From NCBI GenBank assembly GCA_019233755.1, contig JAFAMD010000013.1, forward strand, positions 62,001 through 126,000: 64,000 nt of DNA. The letters are read 5' to 3'. Shown one piece after another: positions 40,991 to 60,279 of this stretch. How positions within the stretch are numbered: position 1 is the stretch's first letter; every line of letters starts with the position of its first letter. The DNA comes from Acidobacteriaceae bacterium. GTDB lineage: Bacteria; Acidobacteriota; Terriglobia; Bryobacterales; Bryobacteraceae. Under the pieces are notes generated by a model. It ran no database searches. It was not told the origin of the DNA and saw nothing but the letters and a program-made list of their open reading frames with translations. A program made the position numbers and the translations under genes.

Positions 40991-41365
40991 GTGCGGATCA
41001 TCTCCTGTGCTTTAGCCCTCTTCAGCATCACGCTCTATGGCTGCAGCCGGCATGAAGCCATTGAGTTGGGCCAGGGGCTAACAGGAGGTGATCCGAGAGT
41101 GGGCGAGCACTTGATCTATGCATATGGCTGCGGCTCCTGCCACCTGATCCCCGGCGTGGCAGAGGCAAATGGAAGTGTTGGCCCACCGCTTCAGGGATTC
41201 GGATCTCGCATTTACATTGCAGGCTTGTTAGTAAATACGCCGGAAAATCTGCTCCATTGGATTTCCAAGCCTCAGGAGGTTGATCCCGGAACCGCCATGC
41301 CGGATCTCGGCGTGACCGAACCGCAGGCCCGGGATATCGCTGCCTATCTTTACACGTTGCAATGA
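40991..41365 (+). CDS. Monoheme c-type cytochrome, lipoprotein
   Basis: A 124-residue cytochrome c with GTG start. It has a lipobox-like ITLYGCSRH after a short hydrophobic stretch, one heme site YGCGSCH (residues 45-51), and a Met ligand in TAMPDLGV. It is probably anchored to a membrane facing the periplasm. The domain is closely related to the second heme domain of the next protein (GPPL, YIAGLLVN vs YVAGSLVN, AYLYT). It overlaps the following gene by 4 nt. Confidence 0.9.
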   Translation: MRIISCALALFSITLYGCSRHEAIELGQGLTGGDPRVGEHLIYAYGCGSCHLIPGVAEANGSVGPPLQGFGSRIYIAGLLVNTPENLLHWISKPQEVDPGTAMPDLGVTEPQARDIAAYLYTLQ

Positions 41366-42303
41366 ATCGCCCAGCCATAAAAGTCGCTCTTACTGCGATA
41401 GCCGTCATGATAGTCCTCCAGTTGGTCGGCGGGGTACTGTTCTTGGCATCCGGAAGCTACAACATCGCAGCTGATGAACCACATCTCAAGCCCACACGCT
41501 GGTTGCTGCAGGCCGGCAGAACACGTGCGGTGGAGTTCCGCAGCCGGGGAATGTACGTACCAAACCTTCGGGATCCATCGCTCGTCAAGCACGGACTAAG
41601 GCTTTATCGTAAGAACTGTCAGCCGTGCCACGGTGGGCCGGGTGCTGCGAACGAACAAATCGGGCGCGGAATCGATCCCAAGCCGCCGCCCTTGGTGATT
41701 GCCAGTAATAAGTGGAATGACTCCGAGTTGTTTTGGATCATCTCGCATGGGCTCAAACTCAGCGGAATGCCTGGATTTGCTCCCCGCCTTAGCGAGACCG
41801 ATCGGTGGGGCATCGTAGCCTTTCTTCACCGTGTGGTTTTGCTGTCTCCAACTGATTACAAACAATTGACTACTGCAGAGGACCTGGGTGTTGAGGACTC
41901 ATCATTGCCATGGATATCGAGTAATGATTATGGGTTTGCGCAACTCAAGGCTCAGGGGAATGCCAATAGGGGACGCGAATTGATTCAGACTTATGGCTGC
42001 ACGACCTGTCATACGGTTGCCGGCTTGGGCGCAGCCGCCGTTGGGCCGCCACTTACCCGGTTCGCCGAGCGCCAATATGTTGCCGGGTCACTCGTGAATG
42101 TGCCTTCGAACGCTGTGGCGTGGATCACGAACCCCCAACAGTTCAAACCAAAAACAGCGATGCCAAATCTGAACGTGCCGCCTGCCGAGGCTCTTGACAT
42201 GATCGCGTATCTCTACACCTCGGGCAGTTCGGAGCGCCTCACTGCGCTCGAACGAAGTTCCGGAATCCCGAAAGCAAAATCGACTGCAAAGGTAAATAAA
42301 TAA
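41362..42303 (+). CDS. Diheme c-type cytochrome, membrane-anchored
   Basis: A 313-residue protein with an N-terminal helix (VALTAIAVMIVLQLVGGVLF) and two cytochrome c domains. The first heme site is NCQPCHGGPG (about residues 85-94) with a possible Met ligand in LSGMPGF; the second is YGCTTCHTVAG (about 211-221) with TAMPNLNV. The two-domain form resembles electron carriers between quinol- or alcohol-oxidising enzymes and terminal oxidases. Translationally coupled to the monoheme cytochrome gene. Confidence 0.9.
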   Translation: MNRPAIKVALTAIAVMIVLQLVGGVLFLASGSYNIAADEPHLKPTRWLLQAGRTRAVEFRSRGMYVPNLRDPSLVKHGLRLYRKNCQPCHGGPGAANEQIGRGIDPKPPPLVIASNKWNDSELFWIISHGLKLSGMPGFAPRLSETDRWGIVAFLHRVVLLSPTDYKQLTTAEDLGVEDSSLPWISSNDYGFAQLKAQGNANRGRELIQTYGCTTCHTVAGLGAAAVGPPLTRFAERQYVAGSLVNVPSNAVAWITNPQQFKPKTAMPNLNVPPAEALDMIAYLYTSGSSERLTALERSSGIPKAKSTAKVNK

Positions 42304-45526: not shown

Positions 45527-46639
45527 TCAGATTTCCTTGCCCCGATGCACGTTGCCCTCAATCGAGGTCCTCTCGTTTTTAGGGAACTCAATCAGATCGA
45601 TTAGCTGGCGCGCTCGGATGCTGGCCGTGTGACAGTCGAGGACACGCTGCTTTGCTCGAGAGCCGATTCGTTTCAGTACGCTGGAATCCTCTGAGACCGC
45701 CCGAATGGAATCAGTGGTCGACGCTGCGATGAGGATTTCGTCTCCCGGCAGAAAGAACTCATCGAGCCCTGGCCACCAATCACTCAGAACGGGAGTTCCA
45801 CAGGCTGCAGCTTCAAATAGACGACCCGACGGGCAGTAGCCCATCGCGGCCATCGGTGCTCGCGTGACGTTCAGGGTGATGCGCGAGGAAGAAAAGAAGG
45901 CCGGATGCTGGGGGGGAGGCAAGTGTTCCAGTTTGGTTACATTGGCGGGAGTGTCGCGCAATTGTGGAAACATCGCACCCGCAATGACGAAACGGCGGTT
46001 CGGCATAAGGGCAGCCGGATAAATCAGTAGATTTTCCAATGCGGACTGCCGGTCGGGGGCATACGTGCCTAGGTAAGAGAGATCTGCCCTAAATTCCGGA
46101 ACAGGATCTGCGGTGTGGTAGCTTTCCGGGTCCACCCAGCCGTACAACGCAGAAACGCAGCGGGCATGCAGCTTTTGTCGCAACTGAGTCAGAGCTTCTC
46201 CACCCGTATAACTCAGAACCAGGTCAAAGGCGGCCAAACCCTCCGGGGGAAGATATTCGATACGTTCCCCCTTTTCTAAACGGGCCAACGTTACAGGCGT
46301 GTCCATGTCATAGAAAACCTTTCTTGGGACTTTGGACTTGGTAACCAGTCGCGATGCACGTATCCCATCCGGACAATAAGACGTGACTATTGCAGCGTCG
46401 GCCCTCTCCAGCTGGCGAATCATATCGAAACGGGCATCGAACCAATCAGAGTAAAGATGCAATGCCGCAAATGAAAAACAATCTGCATCCCGATGCGAGG
46501 AGTAGTACGGTTTATCTTGCTCGAAGAAATGAACTTCGTGCCGTTCAGAATGTAGTGCGCGAAATAAGCCACGCAACAGCGTGGCGTGGCCGTTGCCCCA
46601 CGCCGAACTAATTGAAAGACCGAATATGATAATCTTCAT
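45527..46639 (-). CDS. CgeB-family glycosyltransferase (copy 1)
   Basis: A 370-residue GT-B protein of the CgeB/Glyco_trans_1_2 group (named for a Bacillus spore-coat maturation protein). Start at internal ATG 46639 (MKIIIFGLSISSAWGNGHAT). C-terminal domain: FFSSSRITLNVTRAPMAAMG, CPSGRLFEAAACGTPVLSDW, WPGLDEFFLPGDEILIA. The N-terminal WGNGHAT motif is shared with three relatives in this operon, most closely with 49932-51179 (FYDIDTPVTLARLE in both). Probably adds a sugar to a glycoconjugate. Confidence 0.85.
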   Translation of the reverse strand: MKIIIFGLSISSAWGNGHATLLRGLFRALHSERHEVHFFEQDKPYYSSHRDADCFSFAALHLYSDWFDARFDMIRQLERADAAIVTSYCPDGIRASRLVTKSKVPRKVFYDMDTPVTLARLEKGERIEYLPPEGLAAFDLVLSYTGGEALTQLRQKLHARCVSALYGWVDPESYHTADPVPEFRADLSYLGTYAPDRQSALENLLIYPAALMPNRRFVIAGAMFPQLRDTPANVTKLEHLPPPQHPAFFSSSRITLNVTRAPMAAMGYCPSGRLFEAAACGTPVLSDWWPGLDEFFLPGDEILIAASTTDSIRAVSEDSSVLKRIGSRAKQRVLDCHTASIRARQLIDLIEFPKNERTSIEGNVHRGKEI

Positions 46640-46727
46640 TTCTTCGGGATATAACCGGCAGTGTTCTTCATCGAGATGCGCACTGTCCAATTGTCGTAAC
46701 GGATACAATGTCGCTCATTGGCCAGTA

Positions 46728-47858
46728 TTATCGACAGCTAGAAAGAGGTTTAGTATGGGCTGCAGTTCCAGGCGCACCATGAGGGCCTTTACTGCTTTCT
46801 TGAAGGACGCTAAGAGCGGCGCGAATTTCCTCGATAGTTTCTCTCCAATCGCCGAGTTGCTTCTGCCGAAACAGTCGGGCAGTCGGATACCACGGTGTAT
46901 CGCACCTACGTAGCATCCACCGCCAGTCCGCTCTAGCGGGCAGCAATATCCAGACCGGGCGCGCCAATGCGCCAGCGAGATGCGCTGTCATGGTGTCAAC
47001 GGTAATGACTAAGTCAAGATTCAGGATCAGAGCGGCCGTATCCTGTACGTTGGCAGCGTAGGATTCAAGGTCATAAATGGCTCCGCAGCGGCGAAGACGA
47101 TCCGGGTCCGCGCCTTTCTGAAGCTCGTAGAAGCAGCAATTCTTGCACTCGAATAGAGGAGAAAACTCCTCCAGGGGAATGGACCTCAAGGGGTCCCAGG
47201 GCCCAGCATCCCAGGAAATCCCAATTCGGAGGTTCTCGTGGTTCCGAAATAATCCCGAGGCCCACCGGATTCTTTCAGGGGAAACCTGAATGTAGGGCGT
47301 CACTGCTGGGATGTTGGAAATCGTCGTTCGAAACGCTCTTGGCAACTCCGTCACTTCCATTTGTACGTCCCAGTCGAAGCTCTCCGCCCCGGATCCCGGC
47401 CCCCAAGTGAAGACACGATCGACTCCTAAGACGCCTTCGATCAATCGAACAAGTTGCGGGTGCGTTTGAGCGGTAAGGGAACGGCAGGTCTGCCTCAGTA
47501 GCGGTGCATACCGGATGAACTGAATTGTATCTCCGAGGCCGTGCAGGCAACGCAGCATCACGTCCTTCCCGTCCCACGATTGACCGTTCCAAAATTGATG
47601 CGGATCTTTGGCGCCGGTTGCCGTTATAAGTTCGCTTTCTTTCCACGCGCACTCAAATCTGCCCAGCAGCATCCAGCACGTCCATCGAGCCGCTGCGCAT
47701 TCCCTTATGTCGTACCCCAGATGCTGCGCCGAATAGAAACACTGGAGCGCGGGGCGCACATTTCTGTTGAGGAGCAAACTGACGCCATCGGCAAATACTC
47801 TCGACGCACGCCCCGAAGTGGGCAAGACCGGGGTGATCTCGGAGATCTCAAGCTGCAT
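46728..47858 (-). CDS. GT9-like (heptosyltransferase-fold) glycosyltransferase with helical N-terminus
   Basis: A 376-residue protein. Residues 1-90 look like one or two TPR-like helical hairpins (ALQCFYSAQHLGYDIRECAA). The rest resembles the C-terminal half of ADP-heptose:LPS heptosyltransferases: LRCLHGLGDTIQFIRYAPLL, LRIGISWDAGPWDPLRSIPL, and the donor site LDLVITVDTMTAHLAGALAR. This TPR-GT9 type is widespread but poorly characterised. The start ATG lies 11 nt inside the preceding glycosidase gene. Heptose as donor is possible given GDP-heptose genes at 7-9 kb but is not shown. Confidence 0.8.
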   Translation of the reverse strand: MQLEISEITPVLPTSGRASRVFADGVSLLLNRNVRPALQCFYSAQHLGYDIRECAAARWTCWMLLGRFECAWKESELITATGAKDPHQFWNGQSWDGKDVMLRCLHGLGDTIQFIRYAPLLRQTCRSLTAQTHPQLVRLIEGVLGVDRVFTWGPGSGAESFDWDVQMEVTELPRAFRTTISNIPAVTPYIQVSPERIRWASGLFRNHENLRIGISWDAGPWDPLRSIPLEEFSPLFECKNCCFYELQKGADPDRLRRCGAIYDLESYAANVQDTAALILNLDLVITVDTMTAHLAGALARPVWILLPARADWRWMLRRCDTPWYPTARLFRQKQLGDWRETIEEIRAALSVLQESSKGPHGAPGTAAHTKPLSSCR

Positions 47859-48735
47859 ATCGCCTTGTCATTCGGGCACAAAATTCCGCGAACTGGGTAA
47901 CGTCTTTGGGAGGACTGGTGTGATTTGGCGCCAGCCCGCAATGTTCCGGTGTGAAGCAAAAAGTGAGGGTAACGTCAAATGCGTCCAGCTTGATCATCTG
48001 GCTATCGAACCAGCGATCTGCACCCGGACGGAAGCTGTCCGCCCAACTTAGGCCAGTGCGCAGGCGCTTAACGCCGAGTTCCCTCAGCAAAGTTACAGCA
48101 GTCTCAAGCCGATGATCCTCAAAATGAAACCATTGGCAGATGCCCAGCGCAGGAGTGTACTGTCGGAAATCTCGTAAAGCTGGTTTGTGCGTCCCATCCT
48201 CCCGGACAAGGCCCATGTAAAAGTGACGGTAGTAAGCCGAGCCCTCCGCTTCACGGTGTCTCGTGGTAGCAGGCCACGCTCTAGGCAAATCGTAGAGGCT
48301 ATACCAATGGATGCGCTCCGTGCGGTTAACTAGCAATTCGGCGGTTCGGTTTAGCCCGAAGACCTGGATCTCCTCGGCGCCAAACGTAGACGCGCCCACC
48401 TCCGACACCCATATGGGTAGCGTCGTCACAGCTCTGATCTCATCGAGCTTTGCCGGCCATTCGTGGATGGACCAGTGGTTCCAATCGAGCGGGAATCCGT
48501 GTACCGCCACCACGTCGACGTGTGAAAGAACACATTGCCGCTGCAACGTGCGCAGAAAGTTTGGATCAATTGGCGACATCCCTCCTAACACCCTTCGCAG
48601 CCTGGGACTCTCTGAGCGAATAGCGTTTGAAGCGTGTCTCACCATGGCAGAATAAATGGACCAGTCCGGATCCAATTCGAAATTCCAGTGAGACAGATTG
48701 TTGGGTTCGTTCCAGAGCATCACCGCTTCAATCAT
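47848..48735 (-). CDS. Circularly permuted GH39-like glycosidase
   Basis: A 295-residue TIM-barrel glycosidase-like protein whose halves are in swapped order. Residues 3-190 hold the usual second half of the barrel: acid/base Glu10 in MLWNEPNN and nucleophile Glu112 in IWVSEVGAS. Residues 200-294 hold what is normally the first half (LGVKRLRTGLSWADSF, FTPEHCGLAP, FAEFCARMTRRYA). In the unpermuted relative encoded at 55756-57789 these parts occur in the normal order. ATG 48735 has GGAG in front and overlaps the methyltransferase gene by 8 nt, so the permuted gene is intact. Family members tend to be annotated as beta-xylosidase; the true substrate is unknown. Confidence 0.82.
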   Translation of the reverse strand: MIEAVMLWNEPNNLSHWNFELDPDWSIYSAMVRHASNAIRSESPRLRRVLGGMSPIDPNFLRTLQRQCVLSHVDVVAVHGFPLDWNHWSIHEWPAKLDEIRAVTTLPIWVSEVGASTFGAEEIQVFGLNRTAELLVNRTERIHWYSLYDLPRAWPATTRHREAEGSAYYRHFYMGLVREDGTHKPALRDFRQYTPALGICQWFHFEDHRLETAVTLLRELGVKRLRTGLSWADSFRPGADRWFDSQMIKLDAFDVTLTFCFTPEHCGLAPNHTSPPKDVTQFAEFCARMTRRYAA

Positions 48736-49441
48736 GGTGCTCTCTCCGCCTGCAGATATAGACCTCGTTCTCGGGACGTTCCACGATCTCAAACCCAGAG
48801 CTGCGCAGCATGGCCTCCACACAAGCCCGATTCGGGATCCACCAATTCGTTGGATCGTGCGCGTACCGGTGCTCGACGAAATGCATCACAGGATAGCCGT
48901 CCAGGTTAAATACGGCCGTTTCGGCGAAGGGGTAGTTTTCCTGAAGAGTCGGCACCGTACAGCTCCCGCGCAACAACGACTGAAAAATGAGCATTTCTCT
49001 GACGGCATGTTCTTGTAGGAGGTCGAGAGCCAGCAACGGATGGCGGAGATGATAGAGGACACCCATAAAGAGCACGATGTCAAATTTCTCTCTCAATGCC
49101 GCGACATCATACACGTCGAGTTTACGAATATCTAGGTCTACGCCGGTGATTTGAGCCGCAAAGCGCGCCTGCTCCAGATAATCGTGGTCCGAATCGATAC
49201 TCACTACGCGGGCGGCGCCGCGCCGCTTCATTTCAATGGAGTAGAAACCTCCGTTACAACCGACATCGAGCACGCTCTTTCCAGTCAGATCGGCCGGAAT
49301 GCTTGCCTGAAATGCGTGCCATTTACAGGATGGATAGTCGCCGAGAAAGTGATTCGGCGCAGTTTGTACACCGCCAAGATCAATATTGTGAAACCACGTG
49401 CCGAGTTCCAATACTCGTTGCCTGATCTGATTGGCGGTCAT
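48728..49441 (-). CDS. SAM-dependent methyltransferase (rhizo-twelve type)
   Basis: A 237-residue class I methyltransferase from the ATG at 49441 (49465 and 49507 are alternatives). It starts IRQRVLELGTWFHNIDLGGV, then QTAPNHFLGDYP, and has SAM motif I SVLDVGCNGGFYSIEM, VSIDSD, LFMGVLYHLRHPLLAL. The LGxWFHN...QTAP opening recalls the family I know from TIGRFAMs as the methyltransferase of the rhizo-twelve gene cassette, related to CmoB/DUF1698 enzymes; this recollection should be checked. Its end overlaps the permuted glycosidase gene. Confidence 0.87.
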   Translation of the reverse strand: MTANQIRQRVLELGTWFHNIDLGGVQTAPNHFLGDYPSCKWHAFQASIPADLTGKSVLDVGCNGGFYSIEMKRRGAARVVSIDSDHDYLEQARFAAQITGVDLDIRKLDVYDVAALREKFDIVLFMGVLYHLRHPLLALDLLQEHAVREMLIFQSLLRGSCTVPTLQENYPFAETAVFNLDGYPVMHFVEHRYAHDPTNWWIPNRACVEAMLRSSGFEIVERPENEVYICRRREHHD

Positions 49442-49510
49442 GGGTACAGAAACTTCACCTTTCATCGCCTTTCGATCTTGGCGTGCACAGCCTGTTTCGC
49501 TCAACACGGT

Positions 49511-50113
49511 TCATATTGGGATCTCTCGGGTGTAATTGAGGCACCGAATAGAAGGCCAATCCTCGACAAAGCGCACGACGGTAACGGAGGCAGGGCTGAT
49601 ATCAAACCGCAGCAGGAGATCGAGTGGCATCCCAAGATAATGCGCAATAAGCGTCCGCAAAGGATCGGCGTGGCTCACAACCGCCACGGTTCCTTCGTTG
49701 TGCCGAGCGCGCAGATTCTCAATTTCACGCACCATTCGCGTTTGAACCTCAATCATGAGCTCTCCCCCAGGGGCTCGTACAATGCTTCTCATTGCATTAA
49801 ATCGGCGCCATCTGGAATCTTCACTCAGTTCTTCAAAAGCCCGGCCCTCCCACTGGCCAAATCGCAACTCGCCAAGATCTTCGCGAATGGCCGGAAGAAT
49901 GCGATGCGGCGTTCCGATAGCCTCCGCTGTCTCAACGGCACGTTCGAGTGGGCTCGTGTAGATTGCTTCGATCGGCACCCGGGAGAGAGACTGCGCAAGC
50001 CGCTGCACCTGCTCTCTTCCCGTCTCGTTCAGATGGTAATCGGGTCTCCAGCCCGCGAGCAATGTTCCCACTGCATCCGTCTCGCCATGTCGCACCAGGA
50101 GAAACGTGCTCAT
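49511..50113 (-). CDS. Histidine phosphatase family protein
   Basis: A 200-residue phosphoglycerate-mutase-like phosphatase. The catalytic RHGE motif is at the N-terminus (FLLVRHGETDAVG), the second Arg/Glu in SPLERAVETAEAIG, and the second His in VAVVSHADPLRTLIAHYLG. AAGGAGATGA directly precedes the ATG. It probably removes a phosphate from a sugar phosphate of the pathway, which is inference. Its first 182 bp overlap, in another frame, the 3' end of the CgeB-like gene upstream. Confidence 0.9.
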   Translation of the reverse strand: MSTFLLVRHGETDAVGTLLAGWRPDYHLNETGREQVQRLAQSLSRVPIEAIYTSPLERAVETAEAIGTPHRILPAIREDLGELRFGQWEGRAFEELSEDSRWRRFNAMRSIVRAPGGELMIEVQTRMVREIENLRARHNEGTVAVVSHADPLRTLIAHYLGMPLDLLLRFDISPASVTVVRFVEDWPSIRCLNYTREIPI

Positions 50114-51179
50114 TCATCTCCTTCAAGTAATGTTCAAGCTGCAGGGCGCGAGCAACGGGAGTGTGCTCCGCGAGCACGCGTCTCCGGGCGCCCGCAGCAA
50201 CGCGCAAACGCGCTGATTCGGGAAAATCGCGAAGATAGCGGAGTACGTCATCGGCGCTCTCCGCCACCAGCAATTCTTCACCGATCCTGAAGACTCTGTC
50301 CAGTCCTTCCCAGCAATCGCTTATCACGGGCACGCCACAGGCCCCAGCTTCAAACAGACGCACGCTCGGCGAATACCCAGCTTTCTTCATAGCTTCGCGA
50401 GTAATATTGAGAGTGAATCGCTGCGCTCCATAAAACGACGCGTGCTCCCGTGGCGATAGATGTATCGTCCGCTCTACGTTCGTGGGCCAGGAGATTGTCT
50501 CAGGATACTGAGGACCAGCTATAGCAAAGCGGCCTTTAGACCACTGTCGTGCCGGTGCAATAAACAGTGCGTCCAACGATGGTTGGCGATCTGCGCTGTA
50601 GGTTCCGAGGTAACCCAGGTCCCAATAGGTCGGTGTTCTGGGCGGATTGTATTTTTCCGGATCAACGGAGCAATAGAGCGCGCGAGCCATCGGCGAACCG
50701 TATCGACGCTCGATATTCCTCAAAGTAGGTCCGCCGGTGAAGGAAAGATACGCATGATATCGGCGAATCAGCTCGGGATTAATATATTCCGCGTTTCCTG
50801 CTTCCAAGCGGGCCAAAGTAACCGGAGTGTCGATATCGTAAAAGACGCATTTTCCGAGTGCCACGGAGGTGGCCCACTCGCCGATTCGGATGCCATCCGG
50901 AACATACGACCCGACGATCACGAGCGCTGCGTGGCTTACAACGCACTCAAAGCGAGCTATCAGTTCTTCGACACTCTCATAAATCACCGTAGTAGCGCCG
51001 TCAGGGTGCGGCTCATCGCGATTCTCGGCGTACCATGGGGCGTCGCGTTCCAGAAACAGGATGCGATAACCTCGCAAGGCCAGTCCCCGGATCAAAGCTC
51101 GCCAGGTCGTCGCGTGGCCGTTCCCCCAGGAGGACGTCACAGTTAAGCCGAGAATGACGATATCGAAAGGCGCTGTCAT
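49932..51179 (-). CDS. CgeB-family glycosyltransferase (copy 2)
   Basis: A GT-B protein of 415 residues with the CgeB pattern: ILGLTVTSSWGNGHATTWRA, FYDIDTPVTLARLEAGN, AQRFTLNITREAMKKAGYSP, SVRLFEAGACGVPVISDCWE. Conserved sequence ends near ALQLEHYLKEMNEH, about 60 codons before the stop. The remaining codons overlap the phosphatase gene and look like an out-of-frame run-on; one frame back, a TGA overlaps the phosphatase ATG. A late frameshift or sequencing error is likely. Closest relative in the window is copy 1. Confidence 0.85.
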   Translation of the reverse strand: MTAPFDIVILGLTVTSSWGNGHATTWRALIRGLALRGYRILFLERDAPWYAENRDEPHPDGATTVIYESVEELIARFECVVSHAALVIVGSYVPDGIRIGEWATSVALGKCVFYDIDTPVTLARLEAGNAEYINPELIRRYHAYLSFTGGPTLRNIERRYGSPMARALYCSVDPEKYNPPRTPTYWDLGYLGTYSADRQPSLDALFIAPARQWSKGRFAIAGPQYPETISWPTNVERTIHLSPREHASFYGAQRFTLNITREAMKKAGYSPSVRLFEAGACGVPVISDCWEGLDRVFRIGEELLVAESADDVLRYLRDFPESARLRVAAGARRRVLAEHTPVARALQLEHYLKEMNEHVSPGATWRDGCSGNIARGLETRLPSERDGKRAGAAACAVSLPGADRSNLHEPTRTCR

Positions 51180-52267
51180 ACACCCATTTCCACGCCCACG
51201 GCCACAGAGATATCGAGAACAGCGTCGATCTGTTCAGCACGATGAGCATATGTGTGCTCCGCGAGCGCGCGCCGGTGTGCCGCCGCTCCAATCTTCCTGG
51301 CTTCATCGACAGTGAGCCTGCGCATCCATTCGACTACTTCTTCGCCATCTGATGCCACGAGAATCTCCTCGTCGGGTTCGAAAAACATGCCGATGCCTTC
51401 CCATGCATCCGTGATCATGCACGCTGCCGCGCCGGCGGCTTCGAACACCCGAGTAGCCGGAGAAAACCCGTACCTCGCCATGCTTTCGCGGGTGACGTTC
51501 AGCACAGCTCGCGGGGTTGAGTTGAACGCGTTATGATCGCGCGTGTACACGTGATCGTAGTACTTGATATTCGAACTCTTTCGCTTATCATTCCATCCTG
51601 AACCTCCGAGCAGAAAACGAAGCTCGGGCAGTTGTTCCGCTGGTTTAAGAAAGAACTCCTCCACGCGCGTTTCGCGATCCGGGAGCCGGTTTCCTAAGAA
51701 TCCAAGGTCGCCTGAGTAGCGCTTGTCGGCCGCAACGGGAAAATGGGTGTGGGGATCCAGGGCGTTATAGATGGGGACGCACTGGCGGGCTCCAAGGGCG
51801 CGATAAGCCCGAATCACAGGATCTCCTCCCCCATACGTAAAGACCGCGTCATAACCCGGAATCAAAGCGGCAAATGGATCAGCCGAGTTGTGGAATAGAC
51901 GATCGAGCGTTGCGGGGGCATCCACGTCCCAAAACACGACCAGGTTGGACGCGCTCTTGAAAGCCAACACAGCCTTTTCTAACAGCTCATCGAACATGCC
52001 GATTCCACTTGCCTTAACAATCAGATCCGCGCCGCGCGCGCTGTCGACGGCCCGAAGCGCGGCATTGGGTTCAGCCGGATACACAACGACTTGTGCCCAG
52101 GCAGGGTCGGCGATATCACGATGCTGCTGCCGCTGCCAGGCGTCCGGCTCGTAAAACGCTACGTTGTGTCCACGGTCGTGCATCGAGCGCACAATTCCGC
52201 GATAGTATGTCGCTGCACCATTCCAATAGGCCGATACAAGGCTGGAGCCAAAAAAAGCGATGTCCAT
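51176..52267 (-). CDS. CgeB-family glycosyltransferase (copy 3)
   Basis: A 363-residue GT-B protein. N-terminal IAFFGSSLVSAYWNGAATYY, VVFWDVDAPATLDRLFHN, LGFLGNRLPDRETRVEEFF, AVLNVTRESMARYGFSP, TRVFEAAGAAACMITDAWEG. The WNGAAT signature corresponds to WGNGHAT in copies 1 and 2. Its stop overlaps the start of copy 2 (ATGA). Predicted cytoplasmic sugar transferase; donor and acceptor unknown. Confidence 0.87.
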   Translation of the reverse strand: MDIAFFGSSLVSAYWNGAATYYRGIVRSMHDRGHNVAFYEPDAWQRQQHRDIADPAWAQVVVYPAEPNAALRAVDSARGADLIVKASGIGMFDELLEKAVLAFKSASNLVVFWDVDAPATLDRLFHNSADPFAALIPGYDAVFTYGGGDPVIRAYRALGARQCVPIYNALDPHTHFPVAADKRYSGDLGFLGNRLPDRETRVEEFFLKPAEQLPELRFLLGGSGWNDKRKSSNIKYYDHVYTRDHNAFNSTPRAVLNVTRESMARYGFSPATRVFEAAGAAACMITDAWEGIGMFFEPDEEILVASDGEEVVEWMRRLTVDEARKIGAAAHRRALAEHTYAHRAEQIDAVLDISVAVGVEMGV

Positions 52268-52268
52268 T

Positions 52269-53381
52269 CTATGTTTTCCCTTCCGGCACGCTCATTGCCA
52301 CCGGCGATCCGATAAAGGAAAATAATTCGTCCACGCGATGAGCGCACGTGTGCCGGCTGCGAATCGTTTGAAGCGCGTGTGTGATGAGCCGGCTGCGAAT
52401 TAGTGGTTGCTTTAGCAGAAGTTTGAGATGTGAGATCATCTCCTTGCCATTCCGCGCAAACAGAAAATCTTCGCCCGGGCTGAACATGCGCTCCGAATCC
52501 TTCCAGGGCGCCGAGATCAACGGAATGCCGCACGCCATGGCCTCAAAAGGGCGAATGGTCGGAATGCCGGGAAGCGCTTCCACATAATGGTGGCGCGGAA
52601 CATGCAGCGTCAGTTGGTATCGGGCGAAAACCTCCGGGACCTTATGATTCGGTAGCCACCCTCCATATTCAATTCCGGCTTCGGCAAGTTCGCGCAATGC
52701 TTCTTGGGGGTACCGAACGCCATAAACGCGAGCGCGTAATCGCAAGCTTCTTACCGGCTCGATCAGAAACTCGCGCAAGGTGTCTGCACGTTCGCCATCG
52801 CCCCAGTTGCCAATCCACACCAGGTCGCCGACTTTCTCAATCGAGGGCAATGGGCGGAAAACCCGTATGTCGGCCGCTTCGTGCCACGTCCAAGCGTGGA
52901 GCCCCCATCCGAGGGCCCGATAAGCATTGCGAATCGCCGTGCCATAGGCAAGCACGCCATCGAAGCAGCTCAAGTCATATGCGGCAATACCTTCTCGATC
53001 GCTCAGGCTGCGGTGATGCGTGTCATGGAAGAAAAGTTGATAATCGCGGCCAGCCCTATGCCGTCCGATGCGGGCGACCAGTTCCGGTGGATTCCACTCA
53101 TGCACCATGACCACATCCGCGCCCCAAAGAGCTTGGTTGAGATCGAGAGTTCGATCGTCGTAAAGAGCGCTGCGCAATTGCGGAAACGCCTTGTGGAAAT
53201 TCTCGATCGCGCCTTGCCCGTGCTCCCGCAGAAGGTTTTGTCGGCTCCACCCGCTTTCCGGCTCAAAGATGGCCAGCTCGTGACCTCGGCTGAGCAGTTC
53301 CGACGCGATGCCGCGCAAAAAGTGCGCATTGCCATTATTCCAATCCGACACGAGTGAATGTGTGAAGATTACGAAGCGCAA
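52269..53381 (-). CDS. CgeB-family glycosyltransferase (copy 4)
   Basis: A 370-residue GT-B protein starting MRFVIFTHSLVSDWNNGNAH and continuing FLRGIASELLSRGHELAIFE. C-terminal PTIRPFEAMACGIPLISAPW and FSPGEDFLFARNGKEM. More diverged than copies 1-3, but the N-terminal WNNGNAH and the C-terminal donor loop are in place. The start lies 13 nt inside the upstream GT4 gene; 1 bp separates its stop from copy 3. Confidence 0.86.
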   Translation of the reverse strand: MRFVIFTHSLVSDWNNGNAHFLRGIASELLSRGHELAIFEPESGWSRQNLLREHGQGAIENFHKAFPQLRSALYDDRTLDLNQALWGADVVMVHEWNPPELVARIGRHRAGRDYQLFFHDTHHRSLSDREGIAAYDLSCFDGVLAYGTAIRNAYRALGWGLHAWTWHEAADIRVFRPLPSIEKVGDLVWIGNWGDGERADTLREFLIEPVRSLRLRARVYGVRYPQEALRELAEAGIEYGGWLPNHKVPEVFARYQLTLHVPRHHYVEALPGIPTIRPFEAMACGIPLISAPWKDSERMFSPGEDFLFARNGKEMISHLKLLLKQPLIRSRLITHALQTIRSRHTCAHRVDELFSFIGSPVAMSVPEGKT

Positions 53382-54493
53382 GCATGCCTCCTCGTGTGGC
53401 GCCCGTGCTTTGCAAGTGCAGATTGATAGGCACAGAGATATTCCGTGACCATCCGCGACTCCGTGAATTCAGATGCGCGGCTCAGAGCGCGCCTCGACAT
53501 TTTCGCGCGATAGATCGAGTCGTGCATGAGTCGCTGCAACACCGTTTTGAGAGCGTCTGCATCATTCGGAGCGACAAAGGCCGCGGCATCCTGCCAGATC
53601 TCACGCAGACTAGCGATATCGCCTAACACCAGTGCGCATCCCGACATCGCTGCTTCGAGAACAGACAGTCCAAAGGGCTCATAGCGCGCTGGCGACACAT
53701 AGATCGCCGCACGCGCATACCATTCGGACAATTCCACCGGGCTCAAATGTCCCAGTAAACGGCAACCAGGCAGCACTGTTTCGTCTCCGTTGGGACTCCG
53801 CGGATCTCCTGCCAAAAAGACAGGCCAGGATAGCTGCGGCGCGAGACCTGCGAGTATCTTCGCGTTCTTTGCCTCGTCCCAAAGCCGCCCGACACTTAGA
53901 ATCAAAGGCTTCTTTTCCTGAATCCGGAATCCTCCCGGCCTGCGTCCGTTGTAGATAGCAAAACCACTCTCGATCTCAATTGCATAGTGTTTGCCGATCG
54001 CAGCTAGCGCGACATGGGAAGGCGCCGTAATAATAGTTGCCGATTTGAGGGAGGATTCCACTACCTGCTGGTAATGGCGCCACTCTGGCGGAAGCGGCGA
54101 CTGCTTTACTGCCGCCCACCAGGATGCGACGCAGGAATGCACGGTCGTCACAACGGGTATCTTCCAAGGAAGATCGCCATGGCACAGAGTATTCATGTGA
54201 ATTAAATCAGGGCGTTCCGTCAATGCAACCCCGGTTAACCACTGTCCCGCTCTCTTTATGTCCGGCCACGGCGCCTCCATCCATTCGAGCTTCGAGCTAT
54301 GGTGGATCCATGTCAGCCCGGTCATAGCGCGAGCTGAGCGTATTTGAAAATCGGCAGCGGACGGTCCGAAAGTCGCAAGACAAACCTCCAGCCCCCGCCT
54401 AATCAAGCCCTCGGCCAATTCCAACGTGAACGTCCACACTCCCCCTACCGTGTCTCCTGTGAGCAGAATGCGCTTGAGTCGCCGGTAGGCCAT
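53369..54493 (-). CDS. Family 4 glycosyltransferase
   Basis: A retaining GT-B enzyme of 374 residues. N-terminal RILLTGDTVGGVWTFTLELA with EGLIRRGLEVCLATFGPS, LIHMNTLCHG, LILSVGRLWDEAKNAKILAG, and donor motif EPFGLSVLEAAMSGCALVLG. It is the glycogen/sucrose-synthase-like GT4 subtype. It follows the radical SAM gene by 7 bp in the operon. Confidence 0.9.
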   Translation of the reverse strand: MAYRRLKRILLTGDTVGGVWTFTLELAEGLIRRGLEVCLATFGPSAADFQIRSARAMTGLTWIHHSSKLEWMEAPWPDIKRAGQWLTGVALTERPDLIHMNTLCHGDLPWKIPVVTTVHSCVASWWAAVKQSPLPPEWRHYQQVVESSLKSATIITAPSHVALAAIGKHYAIEIESGFAIYNGRRPGGFRIQEKKPLILSVGRLWDEAKNAKILAGLAPQLSWPVFLAGDPRSPNGDETVLPGCRLLGHLSPVELSEWYARAAIYVSPARYEPFGLSVLEAAMSGCALVLGDIASLREIWQDAAAFVAPNDADALKTVLQRLMHDSIYRAKMSRRALSRASEFTESRMVTEYLCAYQSALAKHGRHTRRHACAS

Positions 54494-54500
54494 CGAGTTA

Positions 54501-55775
54501 TTAGCGAGCCTCCAGTTGAACTAACGGTGCGGGGCGCTGCTCTTGAATGTCACTGAATTCGTCAAACTGATTCAGGTAAAACTCGTGTGCACGCTCCCAG
54601 GCATTATCATCGGGTCGGCCCCAGCGTTGGGTGTAGTCGGGAGAGCCTGGGTAAGGGAACAGCGGTACAGGCTTGTTGGCCCAAACGCCATGTTCTTGGA
54701 GGCTTTGCCGCCAAGCTTCTACCTCTTCAGGCTCATCGGCTTGGCAGTCCAAAAGGTTTGCCTGGACGAAGGGCACGCGCTTCCTCGCATAGAGCAACCG
54801 TTCCGTGATCTCACTCGTCGAGAGCTTGCATTTTTTCTGCAGCAGATCGCGACCAGCCGGGGTAATGCTTTCCACGCCAGCTTCGATAGATACACAGCCC
54901 GCTTTCCCGAGCAGATCGATCATCTCGTGAGTCCAAAGGTCGATTCGCGTCTGAATGCCAAACTTGATTCGGCGCGCGTCAATCATCTCCAAGACCGGCC
55001 GATAGGCGAGGAAAATTTCATCGATGAAGTACACGTACTCGATCCCCGCGGCGACGAGCCCATCAAGCTCACGTGCCACTGTCTCAATCGGCCTCCGCCT
55101 GAACGCATTGCGGAAGTTATCTTTCGCACAGAACGTGCAGTGATAAGGGCATCCGCGGGATGTTTCTATTTCTGCGCCCGGTCCCACAGGCGAGGCGTCG
55201 AAACGATGATGATGGTGGGAATGCCGTGCGATAGTCTTCGAATCCCAATGAACGTCCGGCAGTTCATTCATGTTTGAGGCATGCGGATCACCCTGTACGC
55301 GCACGCCACTCTCTGATCTGTAACAAATGGACGCTGTAGCTGACCAATCGTCGGCGAGCTTGGGCAGAATCTCCTCGCATTCACCTATCACCACCACATC
55401 GGCGCCGAGTTTCCTCAATGCGGCAGTTGGTGTGGTCGAGCCATGAGGGCCCACACCAACTAACTTGCAGGGCAGATCGTGCAGCACATTCATGACTTGT
55501 CGAGGCACACGCAACTCAGGCGGAGCGCACCGCCAAAACAAATAACTAGGCGCGGTCGTAACCACGGCAAAATCGGAATCGAATTCACTAACGCTTGCGC
55601 GAATTTGCTCTAGTGTCAGGTCGTTGAGATGAGCATCCACGATTTGAGCCTCGTGACCAGCCCGTTCAAGCAGCACGCGAGAGTAGCCCAACTCCAATGG
55701 AAGGTGAGGTTCACGGCAACCGAAGTAAATGCTGCGATCGAAGTCCCACCGAGGATTAATGAGCGAGAACCGCAC
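54501..55775 (-). CDS. B12-binding radical SAM protein
   Basis: A 424-residue enzyme from a GTG at 55775, chosen because GAGAGGAG precedes it and homology starts there (RFSLINPRWDFDRSIYFGCR). Residues 1-150 form a cobalamin-binding domain (LPLELGYSRVLLERAGHEAQ). The radical SAM domain has the 4Fe-4S triad CPYHCTFC near residue 205, and the barrel strands GIEYVYFIDEIFLAYRP and CVSIEAGVESITPAGRDLL. Such enzymes often methylate unactivated carbons or rearrange sugars. I recall this type as the signature protein (TIGR04295) of the rhizo-twelve system; to be verified. Confidence 0.9.
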   Translation of the reverse strand: MRFSLINPRWDFDRSIYFGCREPHLPLELGYSRVLLERAGHEAQIVDAHLNDLTLEQIRASVSEFDSDFAVVTTAPSYLFWRCAPPELRVPRQVMNVLHDLPCKLVGVGPHGSTTPTAALRKLGADVVVIGECEEILPKLADDWSATASICYRSESGVRVQGDPHASNMNELPDVHWDSKTIARHSHHHHRFDASPVGPGAEIETSRGCPYHCTFCAKDNFRNAFRRRPIETVARELDGLVAAGIEYVYFIDEIFLAYRPVLEMIDARRIKFGIQTRIDLWTHEMIDLLGKAGCVSIEAGVESITPAGRDLLQKKCKLSTSEITERLLYARKRVPFVQANLLDCQADEPEEVEAWRQSLQEHGVWANKPVPLFPYPGSPDYTQRWGRPDDNAWERAHEFYLNQFDEFSDIQEQRPAPLVQLEAR

Positions 55776-57789
55776 GATGGACTCCTCTCTCTGTTTGGCG
55801 CATATTGGGTCTGTACGATTCGACCAGCCAGTCATACAGCCGCTGCACTCCTTCACGGACGCTTACTCTTGCAGCCCAGCCTGTCGCCGCCTTAAACTTT
55901 CGAGTATCTGATACGTAGTAGCGCTGATCGCCAATCCGCCAATCGTCCTTCCGTACTTCCGGCATGCGATTTTGCAGAGTCCCGATTAAATCCAGCAGTT
56001 CCGTAAGACTGATTGTGTTTCCTAATCCGCCGCCAATGTTGAAGGCCTGGCCGGATAGCGTGTGACTGTTTGCCTGAGCCAGCAGGAACGCGTCCACCAG
56101 ATCGTCCACGAATAAAACATCGCGAACCTGCAGGCCGTCGCCGCAAATGGTAATTGGTTCGCCTTTGATTGCCTGTATCAGAAAATGCGCGATCCAGCCC
56201 TGATCTTCCGTGCCCATTTGATGGAGCCCGTAGATGCAGCTCATACGGAACACAATGGCAGGAATGTTGAAGGTACGCGCATAGTCGAGAACGTATTGAT
56301 CAGCCGCGCCTTTTGAGCAGCCGTATGGACTATGAAAATCGAGCGGCCTTTCTTCGTTGATACCCGTCCGCAGGGCTGCGTCAAACGGCTGATACCGCGT
56401 CGAATTTCTTTGCAGACAGAGATCCGAAAGCGCGCCGTAAACTTTATTAGTCGAAGTGAAAACCAGCGGCGGCGGGTTATTCATTCCTCTAATGACCTCC
56501 AGCAGATTCAGAGTGCCGCCTATGTTTATCTCGTAGTCATCCCGCGGCTTTAAGAGGCTTGTCGTCACCGCTACCTGCGCGGCAAAATGAAAGACTCTGC
56601 CTGCAGAGAGCACTGCGGATTTGAGTCCGGCGGCGTCGCGTACATCTCCGACTTCCATGCGCACCTTGTTGCCGTGTTTCTCGCGGAGCCACGTTACGTT
56701 GCAACCCACGCCTTGCCTCGACAGGTTGTCATAGAGCGTGACCTCGCAGCCTTCCGTAAGTAAGCGATCGGCCAAGTTGGTGCCAATAAAACCTGCGCCG
56801 CCCGTGATCAAAACACGCGTTTCGCTTCCGCCGGACTGTGGCCGTACAAACCGTGCAGACTCCTTCACCGATTTCAGTCCACCCTCTGACCAAAGCCGGA
56901 ACAGTAACTTGGGACTTGAATCCGCGTGGAGAAGCCCATAGTGGTAGTCACGTTCATCAGAATGGAGGGAGTCAGGACTCCCCGTTATGGCCGGTTTGTC
57001 GAAAACTTCCTGCCAGTACACTCGCTCTACTGGAGCATTCATAGCGTCAGCAAAGGCCCACACTTGAGCCTTCTCGTTCCCTCGCCATGTGGAGAAGCCC
57101 GTTTGCGTGATCCAAATCTCAGGATTCGCGCCAAGCCGATCCAGGCATCTCCGCACATCCCCGACTTCCTGTTCCCAGCCGCGCCAGCCGAACTCCGGGC
57201 TGCTCGGAAACCCGTGTACACCGACAGCATCGATGTGGGAGAGTACGCCACGCTCGCACATTAAGTCGAACCATTGCGGATTGGAGGGCCATAGACCGGG
57301 AAGAACCGCCCTTTTGCCTCGCTTGCGAATCCAATAGGCGGCGCCGCCGATCATCTCGCTGAAGATTCGCCAGCCTGGATCCATGCGCGAATCCCATTCA
57401 TCGGGATGATTTGGATGGTTCCACAGCTCCAGCCATTCAAACAGACCGCCGAAGCGCGTGATCATCACATCGATGAAGTCGGCGTAGGCCTTGGGAGTCC
57501 GTGGGGGCGAGGAGAACTTCGGCGCCATCCCGAGTGACGGCGGCGTGTAAAGAAAGCAGGGTAGAACGTTGACGTCAGCAGCGAGCCGAGGGAGCAGCCA
57601 AGCGTACCAACCGTCCCCCTCAGATGTGTACCAATCCGCCCAGCATATGCCGGTACGCATCTCACGCACCCCCAGGGTACGTACTTTTGCGAGGACGTTC
57701 TCCACTCGTTGATATTCCCCAGGCCGGAACCACTCCACTAGACCTGGCCGCGGGCCGCTCCCTTGATCTGTTTTGTTGCGGGCTCTCAT
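55756..57789 (-). CDS. Fusion: inactive GH39-like barrel + CDP-paratose-2-epimerase-like SDR
   Basis: A 677-residue protein. Residues 20-305 are a TIM barrel related to the permuted protein at 47848-48735, but the acid/base Glu is His125 (ELWNHPNHP) and the nucleophile is Gln229 (IWITQTGFS), so it should not hydrolyse glycosides. Residues 325-665 are an extended SDR: VLITGGAGFIGTNLADRL, DNLSRQGVGCNV, TSTNKVYG, SPYGCSKGAADQYVLDYAR and QGWIAHF, as in CDP-paratose 2-epimerases. The barrel may bind the glycan while the SDR supplies a nucleotide sugar. Start overlaps the preceding epimerase gene by 4 nt; its end overlaps the radical SAM start by 20 nt. Confidence 0.87.
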   Translation of the reverse strand: MRARNKTDQGSGPRPGLVEWFRPGEYQRVENVLAKVRTLGVREMRTGICWADWYTSEGDGWYAWLLPRLAADVNVLPCFLYTPPSLGMAPKFSSPPRTPKAYADFIDVMITRFGGLFEWLELWNHPNHPDEWDSRMDPGWRIFSEMIGGAAYWIRKRGKRAVLPGLWPSNPQWFDLMCERGVLSHIDAVGVHGFPSSPEFGWRGWEQEVGDVRRCLDRLGANPEIWITQTGFSTWRGNEKAQVWAFADAMNAPVERVYWQEVFDKPAITGSPDSLHSDERDYHYGLLHADSSPKLLFRLWSEGGLKSVKESARFVRPQSGGSETRVLITGGAGFIGTNLADRLLTEGCEVTLYDNLSRQGVGCNVTWLREKHGNKVRMEVGDVRDAAGLKSAVLSAGRVFHFAAQVAVTTSLLKPRDDYEINIGGTLNLLEVIRGMNNPPPLVFTSTNKVYGALSDLCLQRNSTRYQPFDAALRTGINEERPLDFHSPYGCSKGAADQYVLDYARTFNIPAIVFRMSCIYGLHQMGTEDQGWIAHFLIQAIKGEPITICGDGLQVRDVLFVDDLVDAFLLAQANSHTLSGQAFNIGGGLGNTISLTELLDLIGTLQNRMPEVRKDDWRIGDQRYYVSDTRKFKAATGWAARVSVREGVQRLYDWLVESYRPNMRQTERGVHRAVLAH

Positions 57790-58907
57790 ATCATCAAACC
57801 TCTGACAGCAAGCTCCTCACGTGCTTCAATAGCCCGATCCGATGCTTTCCGGCCTTCTAGCCATACTGCGAGATCATCTAAGCCCTGCTCGATCTCGATC
57901 GAGGGTCTCCACCCGAGAGCGCTTCTGGCGCGGGAAATATCGGCAAAACAATGCCGAATATCCCCGACCCGGTACTTGCCGGTGATTTCCGGTTCTAAGT
58001 CCCTTGATCCCAGGCACCGGATCGTTCTGCGTGCGATTTCCTCCACAGTCATCGCTTGGCCAGAAGAAATGTTGAAAGCCTCGCCATCAACGTGTTCTGA
58101 TTCGAGCGCTAGCCTGCATGCCGACGCCACATCGTAGACGCTCACAAAGTCTCTCTTCTGCCGGCCATCCTCATAGATCAAGGGAGCCCTTCCATTCAAA
58201 ACGCGTGCGGCAAAATTGCTCAGCACGCCGGTATAAGGATTCGAGAGCGCCTGATAAGGCCCATATGTGTTGAAAAAGCGCAGCGCGGCGGCGCGCATGC
58301 CATAAGCGCTTGAGAGCATCAGTGTCATCCTTTCCTGGTCGTATTTCGAAAGCGCATACACCGAAGCTAGTGCAGGAGTCTTATCTTCCGGAGTCGGAAC
58401 AGGAATCAGCGGTCTGCCTAGTCCATCTGTGATTTCCCATCTCGCTGCTCTTAACTGATCAAGAGTACGGGCAGGAGCAGCCTCAGGAATTCCATCCGCA
58501 TTCAGATAGAGACCTTCGCCATAGACACTCATGCTTGAGGCGACCACAACGGCTTCTACTGGCTTCGCGCTCAAGACTTGCATAAGCGTGGCTGTGCCGC
58601 CGTTGTTGACGCTGGTATATTCTTCAATCTGATACATGCTCTGACCCACGCCGACTAGGGCGACCAGGTGGATCACAGCATCGATTCCTCGCAATGCTCG
58701 AGAGAGCAACTGTGAATTGCGAATGTCGCCTATAACCAATTCAACCTCTGAATCAAGGTAGTCAGGCCTGCCTCCGATAGGACCGTGAACCTGAGGCACA
58801 AGAGCGTCGAGCACGCGAACACGGTAACCATGCTCCAGGAGCTCGTTTGAAACGTGAGCGCCTATGAAGCCAGCGCCACCCGTAATCAGTACGGATTTAT
58901 GTGACAT
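57786..58907 (-). CDS. NAD-dependent sugar epimerase/dehydratase
   Basis: A 373-residue extended SDR and first gene of the 13-gene reverse operon. Cofactor loop VLITGGAGFIGAHVSNELLE, GDIRNSQLLSRALRGIDAVI, SSMSVYGEGLYLNADG, catalytic YALSK, and FFNTYGPYQALSNPYTGVLS. Similar to dTDP-L-rhamnose/UDP-glucose epimerase-type enzymes, with an unusually long insert (residues about 130-180) before the active site. Substrate unknown. Confidence 0.87.
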   Translation of the reverse strand: MSHKSVLITGGAGFIGAHVSNELLEHGYRVRVLDALVPQVHGPIGGRPDYLDSEVELVIGDIRNSQLLSRALRGIDAVIHLVALVGVGQSMYQIEEYTSVNNGGTATLMQVLSAKPVEAVVVASSMSVYGEGLYLNADGIPEAAPARTLDQLRAARWEITDGLGRPLIPVPTPEDKTPALASVYALSKYDQERMTLMLSSAYGMRAAALRFFNTYGPYQALSNPYTGVLSNFAARVLNGRAPLIYEDGRQKRDFVSVYDVASACRLALESEHVDGEAFNISSGQAMTVEEIARRTIRCLGSRDLEPEITGKYRVGDIRHCFADISRARSALGWRPSIEIEQGLDDLAVWLEGRKASDRAIEAREELAVRGLMI

Positions 58908-60279
58908 CCGATTTTCCCTGAACGAATTTGTAGAAAGACTCTCTAACTGCCGCCGAGCAAGCGAGTGCTAAACCTGGATGATAGTTTCACCCGGCAAATT
59001 GCATGAATCTTACGGTGCAGGCCCTGATTGCTTCAAACGGTTACAGTGCGAAGAAGGCTCAGTGAGAGGATTCCCACTCAGCCAAGCGAACTCCTCAACG
59101 TGCGCGGCGCATTCTGCATTGCTCGAAGAAGAATAAGTCGAGTACCACATCTCCATTTTGCGAATCCCGCGCTCTTGCTGATTCGGGAGATAAATTCCTG
59201 CGAGTCTGCACCGTCGGCGCCCGCCAATCCAATTCGCAAAACAAGCAATCCTTCTATCCCATTGCTGATCCGTATTTGTGAGACATTCCTTTTGCTCGAT
59301 GGATATTCGGTGCCCCGGCTGTGTTACACGGTACAAATACGGGGAGCTATCGTGACCCTTCCAGCGGCGAAAGAAGCCGTAACCCGTATCAATCGGAGTC
59401 AACGACCAAGCGACGTTCCGGTCGTTGCTTATTCCGCTTGTTGCATCGCCCCAAACCCCAGCGAATTAGTTATGACGCCGTGGCGCTCAACACAACCTAC
59501 GGATACGTGCTCGGTTGGGTGCCTGCCTTACAGTGGCTGCGATATTCTCAAAGCTTCTATAAATTCTAAGCGGCGTTCTAACTTGTCACAATTTGTGACG
59601 CCCGGAGCGCTTTCTCTTCAATACTGGGTAAGAATTTCCGTGCGCTCTTACGGCTGTTCGAATTTCCTGATCGTACAGACACTGACAAAACCCCGAGGTG
59701 GGAATTACGGTAAGGCAAGACCAGATCTATTGGACCAGACATAGAGAATCGATGCTTTCACTATCTTGGCGCTCCGAAACGTTTCCCGCAGCCAGGAGTC
59801 TCGTTGTGCCGAGCATTGCTGCAGGCCGTCGGCTTCGCTCTGATTTACTGGTGCGGTTTCCCGAGGAGATGTTTCCGGCGCAAAACACCCTCTGTGGACG
59901 ACACTGTACTCCTCTTGGAAGTTACGACTACTCTTAGGTTCGGAGATATATTGCCGAAGACCCGATGGATTCGGCTATTGATGACGCTTCAGGCACTGAC
60001 TGGACTCATTCGATCTCATTCGACTGGCGTTGACTTTATCCATTCCCCAATCACTTAGCAATTTCGTTCCGATCGTCCGCACTCTTCGTTAGCGGAAGCG
60101 CCCCCGGATCTGCAGGGTGGTGCGACATCATGCTACCGACAAGATGCAAGACAACTGAACCATGTCAAACTATATTCTTCGGACGATATATATCCAGCAA
60201 TGTTCCCAGCGTATGTACCGTAAGGTGGGTTGCGTCAAACGTTTGTCGCAAACTTGTAGCTTCAGACGTATCAAAAAAC
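58908..60279. other. Long intergenic region with no supported gene
   Basis: About 1.37 kb. Open frames occur on both strands (59010-59402 reverse; 59028-59744 forward), but neither has SD, domain or codon pattern that convinces me. It contains an exact palindrome GTCACA-ATT-TGTGAC at 59585-59599. The region separates the reverse glycan operon from the xox operon and must hold both promoters. Confidence 0.5.
59585..59599. promoter_or_regulatory. Palindrome GTCACAATTTGTGAC
   Basis: A 15-bp inverted repeat (6-bp arms, 3-bp centre) within the long non-coding stretch. Operator-like in shape; regulator unknown. Confidence 0.35.

Follow-up and report, generated by a model that had tools for sequence, protein, structure and literature searches.

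A probable natural circular permutant of a GH39-like glycosidase barrel in a bacterial glycan-building gene cluster

Results

Genomic context of the permuted gene

The window (the whole stretch of DNA analysed, 64,000 nucleotides from an Acidobacteriaceae bacterium) carries on its minus strand a gene for a GH39-like glycosidase of 295 aa, running from an ATG at 48735 to a TGA at 47848, in which the barrel strands follow the order b4-b5-b6-b7-b8-b1-b2-b3. Its directly upstream neighbour, conserved at other loci, is a TIGR04290 methyltransferase gene (48728..49507, minus strand), which ends at 48728 and is overlapped by 8 nt, while the end of the permuted gene overlaps by 11 nt a downstream gene starting at 47858 (46728..47858, minus strand). 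This downstream gene had no match in Pfam (E<=1e-3) or NCBIfam (E<=1e-4), and from its sequence we take it to resemble a TPR and glycosyltransferase-9-like protein. The sequence GGAG lies 8 nt 5' of the permuted gene's ATG; with the two overlaps, this bears out the first-pass annotation of the gene as intact, with a good Shine–Dalgarno sequence and overlapping genes at both ends.

Further minus-strand genes of the same cluster were a histidine phosphatase family gene (49511..50113, Pfam/NCBIfam), three glycosyltransferase-like genes matching PF13524 (‘CgeB-like’; 49932..53381), a fourth PF13524 gene (45527..46708), a GT4-type glycosyltransferase gene (53369..54493) and a TIGR04295 B12-binding radical SAM protein gene (54501..55856). 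A fused gene with an unpermuted glycoside hydrolase (GH) domain (55756..57789) is overlapped by 4 nt by the NAD-dependent epimerase gene upstream of it (57786..58907, minus strand), and a nucleotidyltransferase also belongs to this glycan-building cluster. As called, the radical SAM ORF shares 101 nt with the fused gene. Its match to the TIGR04295 model starts at residue 29, and the real start codon therefore probably lies inside the called ORF. Genes for c-type cytochromes and PQQ-dehydrogenase-like proteins flank the window cluster (41362–42303, 60130–62049 and 62813–63337), and cytochrome genes likewise adjoin the same cluster in the Rhizobium etli and Tistrella plasmids (flanks of L182 and L183). 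The clusters of Azospirillum and Roseomonas have an inositol-phosphate synthase in addition, and that of Roseomonas also a UDP-glucuronate decarboxylase.

The arrangement was largely conserved elsewhere. Among 77 loci with enough upstream sequence, the methyltransferase gene lay directly upstream of the permuted gene in 62, with an overlap of 4 nt in 33 loci and of 8 nt in 11. At six of the other 15, a homologue of the nucleotidyltransferase ended in that position. Where 7 kb of flanking sequence was available on either side (55 loci), a homologue of the window's PF13524 genes was present at 52.

Homology in swapped order

The two parts of the permuted protein correspond to an unpermuted relative in reverse order. 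Residues 1–190 (b4 to a8; 48166..48735, minus strand) are equivalent to residues about 117–300 of the relative, and residues 195–295 with the stop codon (b1 to a3; 47848..48153, minus strand) to residues about 14–115. When the permuted protein was searched against its own genome (a draft of 71 contigs, 4.95 Mb), the fused protein encoded at 55756–57789 was matched in swapped order, by query residues 3–184 (E 2.0e-19) and 193–293 (E 7.6e-15). Smith–Waterman alignment paired residues 1–188 with 117–298 of the fused protein (score 222; maximum of 500 shuffles 55) and residues 195–293 with 14–113 (score 160; shuffle maximum 43). The limits proposed at first pass (3–190 with 119–305, and 214–294 with 35–118) were close, except that the second segment begins about 20 residues earlier.

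The permuted protein was then rotated to every possible cut point, and each rotation was aligned to the fused protein's GH domain. The best rotation, cut at residues 188–194, scored 382 vs 222 for the unrotated sequence, and shuffled controls over the rotations (n=40) had a mean of 34.6 and a maximum of 44. At the profile level, hhalign matched the permuted profile A1 (62 rows) to the unpermuted profile A2 (9 rows) with E 1.8e-35, over the larger part only. The gene shows the features of a natural circular permutant: its homologous segments are swapped, the former termini have been linked and the present termini fall within the ancestral chain.

Structure prediction

Structure prediction of both proteins had been proposed as a check at first pass. 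The AlphaFold2 model of the permuted protein had a pLDDT of 91.1 and a pTM of 0.89, from a shallow alignment of 62 rows at 67–80 % identity. Its strands (residues 4–7, 47–53, 75–80, 108–113, 142–145, 198–200, 224–230 and 254–260) are b4 to b8 followed by b1 to b3. The chain starts just before b4 and ends just after helix a3 (279–293), and helix a8 (185–193) is linked to b1 by a turn of about four residues; the weakest part of the model was residues about 151–170 (mean pLDDT 52–58). The old ends would be joined by this short a8-b1 turn and the new ends placed in the a3-b4 turn, which we assume from usual TIM-barrel geometry to be on the side of the barrel away from the active site. The unpermuted GH domain, modelled from a shallower alignment, gave a pLDDT of 76.0 and a pTM of 0.77, with eight strands in normal order.

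Residues 195–295 contribute three of the eight strands in the permuted monomer model, and from the strand count and pTM we infer that they close one predicted barrel together with residues 1–190. The protein was modelled as a monomer only, and a real permutation could in principle exist in a domain-swapped or obligate dimer with barrel parts supplied by two chains. This arrangement appears quite improbable, given that the predicted single chain already holds eight strands at a pTM of 0.89 and has a short, regular a8-b1 link.

Foldseek is a sequential aligner that follows chain order, and the two models behaved differently in its searches. The permuted model had nine PDB matches at E<=1e-3 (best 1.7e-4), seven of which spanned 163–186 columns, the other two covering 278 and 303 columns at an rmsd of 7.7 and 11.6. 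Among its best 50 rows, all alignments of at least 250 columns had an rmsd of at least 7.3 Å, and the TM-score by query length was never above 0.44. The unpermuted model had 443 PDB matches at E<=1e-3, the best being PslG (E 6.6e-13, 325 columns, TM 0.69/0.55). That the weaker unpermuted model matched PslG end to end, whereas the better permuted model was matched mainly by half, is expected under circular permutation. A search of a viral fold library gave three matches at E<=1e-3, comprising two GH5 phage proteins (221 and 234 columns) and an uncharacterised protein (313 columns, rmsd 6.8).

Active site and family assignment

Clan GH-A enzymes are (b/a)8 barrels in which an Asn-Glu pair follows b4 and a second Glu sits on b7. 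In the permuted protein N9-E10 follows the strand at 4–7 and E112 lies in the strand at 108–113, so both catalytic Glu residues named at first pass (10 and 112) are present. E10 (WNEPNN, after b4; 48706..48708, minus strand), the presumed acid/base, was found in 127/127 permuted sequences that have a residue at this position, as was N9, and E112 (VSEVG, at the end of b7; 48400..48402, minus strand), the presumed nucleophile, in 129 of 129. H79, W144 and R226 were also kept in 129/129. We take these six residues (N9, E10, H79, E112, W144 and R226) to be the set expected of a clan GH-A retaining active site.

We know of no solved structure or activity for the permuted form, and names such as ‘beta-xylosidase’ in plasmid records are annotation only, which would also fit a non-catalytic carbohydrate-binding or scaffold protein. 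Such a protein is nevertheless an unlikely reading of a gene in which all six of these residues are invariant across 127–129 sequences. The invariance of the E10/E112 pair instead suggests, at the level of sequence, that the permuted enzyme is probably active.

Both profiles showed sequence similarity to GH39/PslG-like proteins. A1 matched PslG with E 1.7e-6 over residues 2–184 only, and A2 over its full length (5–288) with E 4e-7; A2 also weakly matched chains named beta-xylosidase (E 0.004–0.02), which we take to be GH39. Pfam matches to the permuted protein at E up to 1 were limited to PF11790 (1.6e-5) and PF07745 (0.24), with no GH70 or GH13 match, and no NCBIfam family was found for it. 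Fragments of gp41 made up 5 of the 18 rows of one profile search and were taken as chance matches. A contiguous (b/a)8 barrel starting at b1 describes the unpermuted relative and not the permuted protein, which starts at b4.

Distribution and phylogeny of the permuted form

A scan of GTDB (one genome per species), seeded with permuted-protein peptides and hence biased towards the permuted form, returned 536 loci related to the query. The best 80 of the 536 were kept, and all 80 had an ORF that matched the query in one piece over more than 250 residues, at 67–81 % identity. By record title, these best 80 loci covered eight named phyla: Acidobacteriota (32), Myxococcota (18), Pseudomonadota (12), Verrucomicrobiota (5), Gemmatimonadota (3), Chloroflexota (2), Nitrospirota (2) and Thermodesulfobacteriota (2), with four loci having no phylum named. 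The permuted homologues that the first-pass annotation had suggested looking for in other genomes were found in many genomes and phyla.

Among 200 close genomes, 21 (the own genome included) had an unbroken permuted match and three more a match in pieces; among 396 genomes of the phylum, eight had an unbroken match and one more a match in pieces. In the class of a Microvirga genome, 7/337 genomes had the permuted form and 6/337 the unpermuted form. A search of the order of that genome with the unpermuted profile found the permuted form in 24/297 and the unpermuted form in 4/297, both occurring together in one genome. Three additional phylum-level samples had the permuted form in 3/207, 1/145 and 2/148 genomes and the unpermuted form in 2, 1 and 3, respectively. 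Plasmid records with a match numbered 147, including 97 at 60–80 % identity that were mostly from Sinorhizobium and other alphaproteobacteria; among the matches listed in this band, 95–100 % of the query was covered in one piece. The permuted proteins were named ‘beta-xylosidase’, ‘glycosyl hydrolase’ or hypothetical in these plasmid records, with the swapped order unmentioned.

The start of the permuted ORF was sharply conserved. An ATG, GTG or TTG was present at residue 1 in 100 of 103 permuted ORFs, and over 78 loci the identity to the window protein averaged 82 % for the first 25 aa vs 12 % for the 25 codons before. An upstream start supplying a full N-terminal barrel part was ruled out, as the upstream frame was not conserved.

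The window comes from a draft genome of 71 contigs, which might raise the concern of an assembly or gene-calling artefact or of a chance fusion of two fragments. Such an origin is exceedingly improbable: the same chain order in all 80 kept loci, complete Sorangium and Minicystis chromosomes among them, refutes an assembly artefact and upholds the early judgement that assembly error was unlikely. The order was also the same in Sinorhizobium pSymB, and E10 and E112 were invariant.

After rotation to normal order, the permuted sequences formed one clade in both trees, with support of 100/98 in the first (52 rows; 24 of the 76 chosen permuted rows were omitted because the joint motif was missed, and the bootstrap had not settled) and 99/100 in the second (36 permuted rows). 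The second tree used a looser joint motif and omits the unpermuted sequences L047, L187, L215 and L261, which were long or decayed, and the near-copy L170. A separate alignment, A4, leaves out the C fragments that were misaligned in A3. With 80 loci, one clade and a conserved start, the form is fixed as a lineage rather than being a single gene.

The single clade points to one origin, and such high identity across many phyla suggests horizontal spread; we infer that the permutation arose once and then spread horizontally. No tandem-duplication intermediate was found among 129 distinct permuted sequences, so that the route of permutation is not shown by these sequences.

Unpermuted relatives and loss of the catalytic residues

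The unpermuted relative in the window (55756..57789, minus strand) consists of a GH domain (residues 1–318; 56836..57789, minus strand) and an NAD-dependent epimerase (SDR) domain. Permuted and unpermuted versions do lie in one operon, as had been noticed at first pass, with the qualification that the unpermuted copy here has both catalytic Glu replaced (WNHPN and ITQTG). The Arg of b2, the His of b6 and the Trp of b8 are kept in this domain. Most unpermuted relatives were epimerase-fused, as seen directly in the window and in six other regions, by annotation in R. etli and Tistrella, and elsewhere judged from ORF length. The R. etli and Tistrella clusters carry the fused form, with no second match in the plasmid record.

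The b4 and b7 positions were tabulated for 35 unpermuted ORFs at >=150 bits, which gave 22 rows without repeats and 20 genomes. L182 (a plasmid record only, E/E) and L262 (a second copy of genome G1591, not fused, E/E) stand outside this count. An unpermuted copy with both Glu was present in 12 of the 13 genomes in which no permuted gene was found, absence being scored in partly draft genomes, and in none of the seven with a permuted gene (Fisher p 1e-4, a value that ignores relatedness). The b4/b7 residues in these seven were H/Q (own genome), Q/Q (G074), E/A (G211), P/E (G208), G/E (G1020), R/E (G1232) and N/G (G1692). Nine of the 12 intact copies came from the class of the Microvirga genome, three of them near-identical. 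The single exception among the 13, G152, had an E/K copy and no permuted gene found in a genome that is 88 % complete. Its cluster (L268) is reduced, with one PF13524 gene split into two ORFs and the unpermuted GH standing alone, and neither the methyltransferase nor the radical SAM gene was present in the 16 kb read.

The loss of Glu in 7/7 genomes with both forms and the retention of both residues in 12/13 without the permuted gene suggest a takeover, in which the permuted enzyme assumed the function of the unpermuted GH domain and the latter subsequently lost catalytic residues where both occur. The same pattern might reflect lineage history alone, with no functional takeover: the genomes are not independent, and of the eight copies lacking a Glu, five group in a single clade, including that of G152, in which no permuted gene was found. 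This explanation is possible but the less probable one, as losses also occurred in G1020, G1692 and G208, with the replacements G/E, N/G and P/E, each together with a permuted gene, and the alphaproteobacterial order of G1020 has three other fused copies that are all intact. On the first tree the losses map to only three or four positions.

A standalone unpermuted GH gene was found in G1591 (L267:14657–15646), in the slot occupied elsewhere by the permuted gene. It begins with an ATG that overlaps the stop codon of a TIGR04290-like methyltransferase gene, whose product is 47 % identical to that of the window. The GH was about equally distant from the two groups, with a mean identity of 39 % to the rotated permuted sequences and 41 % to the unpermuted ones. 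Its place varied between trees, with the fused group in the first (98/91) and with the permuted group in the second (72/90). This gene may show the slot as it was before the permutation. No further unpermuted standalone genes were found beyond G1591 among the 13 genomes of its order, or beyond G1373 itself among the 26 genomes of the order of G1373.

Discussion

The swapped-order homology, the confident AlphaFold2 model, the contrast in fold searches and the conservation of the family in other genomes, where the ORF starts sharply at the same residue, support the view that a GH39-like barrel (of clan GH-A type) has been circularly permuted, as had been suggested from the window's letters. The gene very probably encodes a naturally permuted retaining glycosidase barrel that is GH39-like and related to PslG.

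By analogy with PslG in the Psl operon, the permuted enzyme would most likely be a retaining glycosidase or transglycosidase whose substrate is a cluster intermediate, one that would be made by the adjoining glycosyltransferases, methyltransferase and epimerases. As the chain opens immediately ahead of b4, it could not accommodate a signal peptide, which suggests a cytoplasmic location for this activity.

A wider scenario, for which we see the balance as even, is that the permuted GH-A barrel arose once, spread across phyla in one oligosaccharide-type cluster and displaced its unpermuted counterpart, the fused copy losing catalysis while the permuted form stayed invariant, with a cut placed almost as in GH70 of an unrelated clan. 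A single subfamily here offers the two topologies, a candidate for the state before permutation (G1591) and several cases in which the displaced copy has decayed, making the effect of permutation on function directly testable. For annotation, the names in plasmid records give nothing on the swapped order, and the sequential fold search of the one model made covered mainly half of that model.

Among the papers listed from the open-access literature searched, none described this gene cluster or a permuted barrel of GH39 or clan GH-A. The best-known precedent is GH70, in another clan. The account of permuted glycosidase barrels given by GH70 rests on one clan; a cut at almost the same place in an unrelated clan, if the wider scenario is true, would mark the a3/b4 region as a preferred point for changes of topology in barrels of this kind.

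Among known systems, the fused unpermuted GH-SDR protein (window 55756–57789; R. etli plasmid L182) belongs to the same subfamily, at about 33–36 % identity and in the same cluster type, and differs in its normal strand order and epimerase fusion. PslG (GH39; PDB 5bx9 and 4zn2; Pseudomonas aeruginosa) was the best profile match of both forms and the best fold match of the unpermuted form. Its Glu pair lies on b4 and b7; its strand order is normal, whereas the permuted protein begins directly at b4. PslG is described as encoded inside an exopolysaccharide biosynthesis operon and as periplasmic, with an N-terminal transmembrane domain (PMC10485009). The window's permuted GH likewise lies within a glycan-building cluster.

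The MalS alpha-amylase of E. coli (GH13 subfamily 19) is reported to have circularly permutated domains (PMC10223318); it belongs to another clan, and the permutation is reported for domain order. The GH70 glucansucrases and GtfB have a similar topology. They are described as a circularly permuted (b/a)8 barrel of the order a3-b4...b8-a8-b1...b3 (PMC4919382) with the unpermuted sisters GtfC and GtfD (PMC9732880). They differ from the present protein in belonging to clan GH-H (GH13-like), with other catalytic residues, and in being large multidomain enzymes acting on sucrose or starch; they share with it a natural permuted GH barrel whose cut lies one helix away from the present cut.
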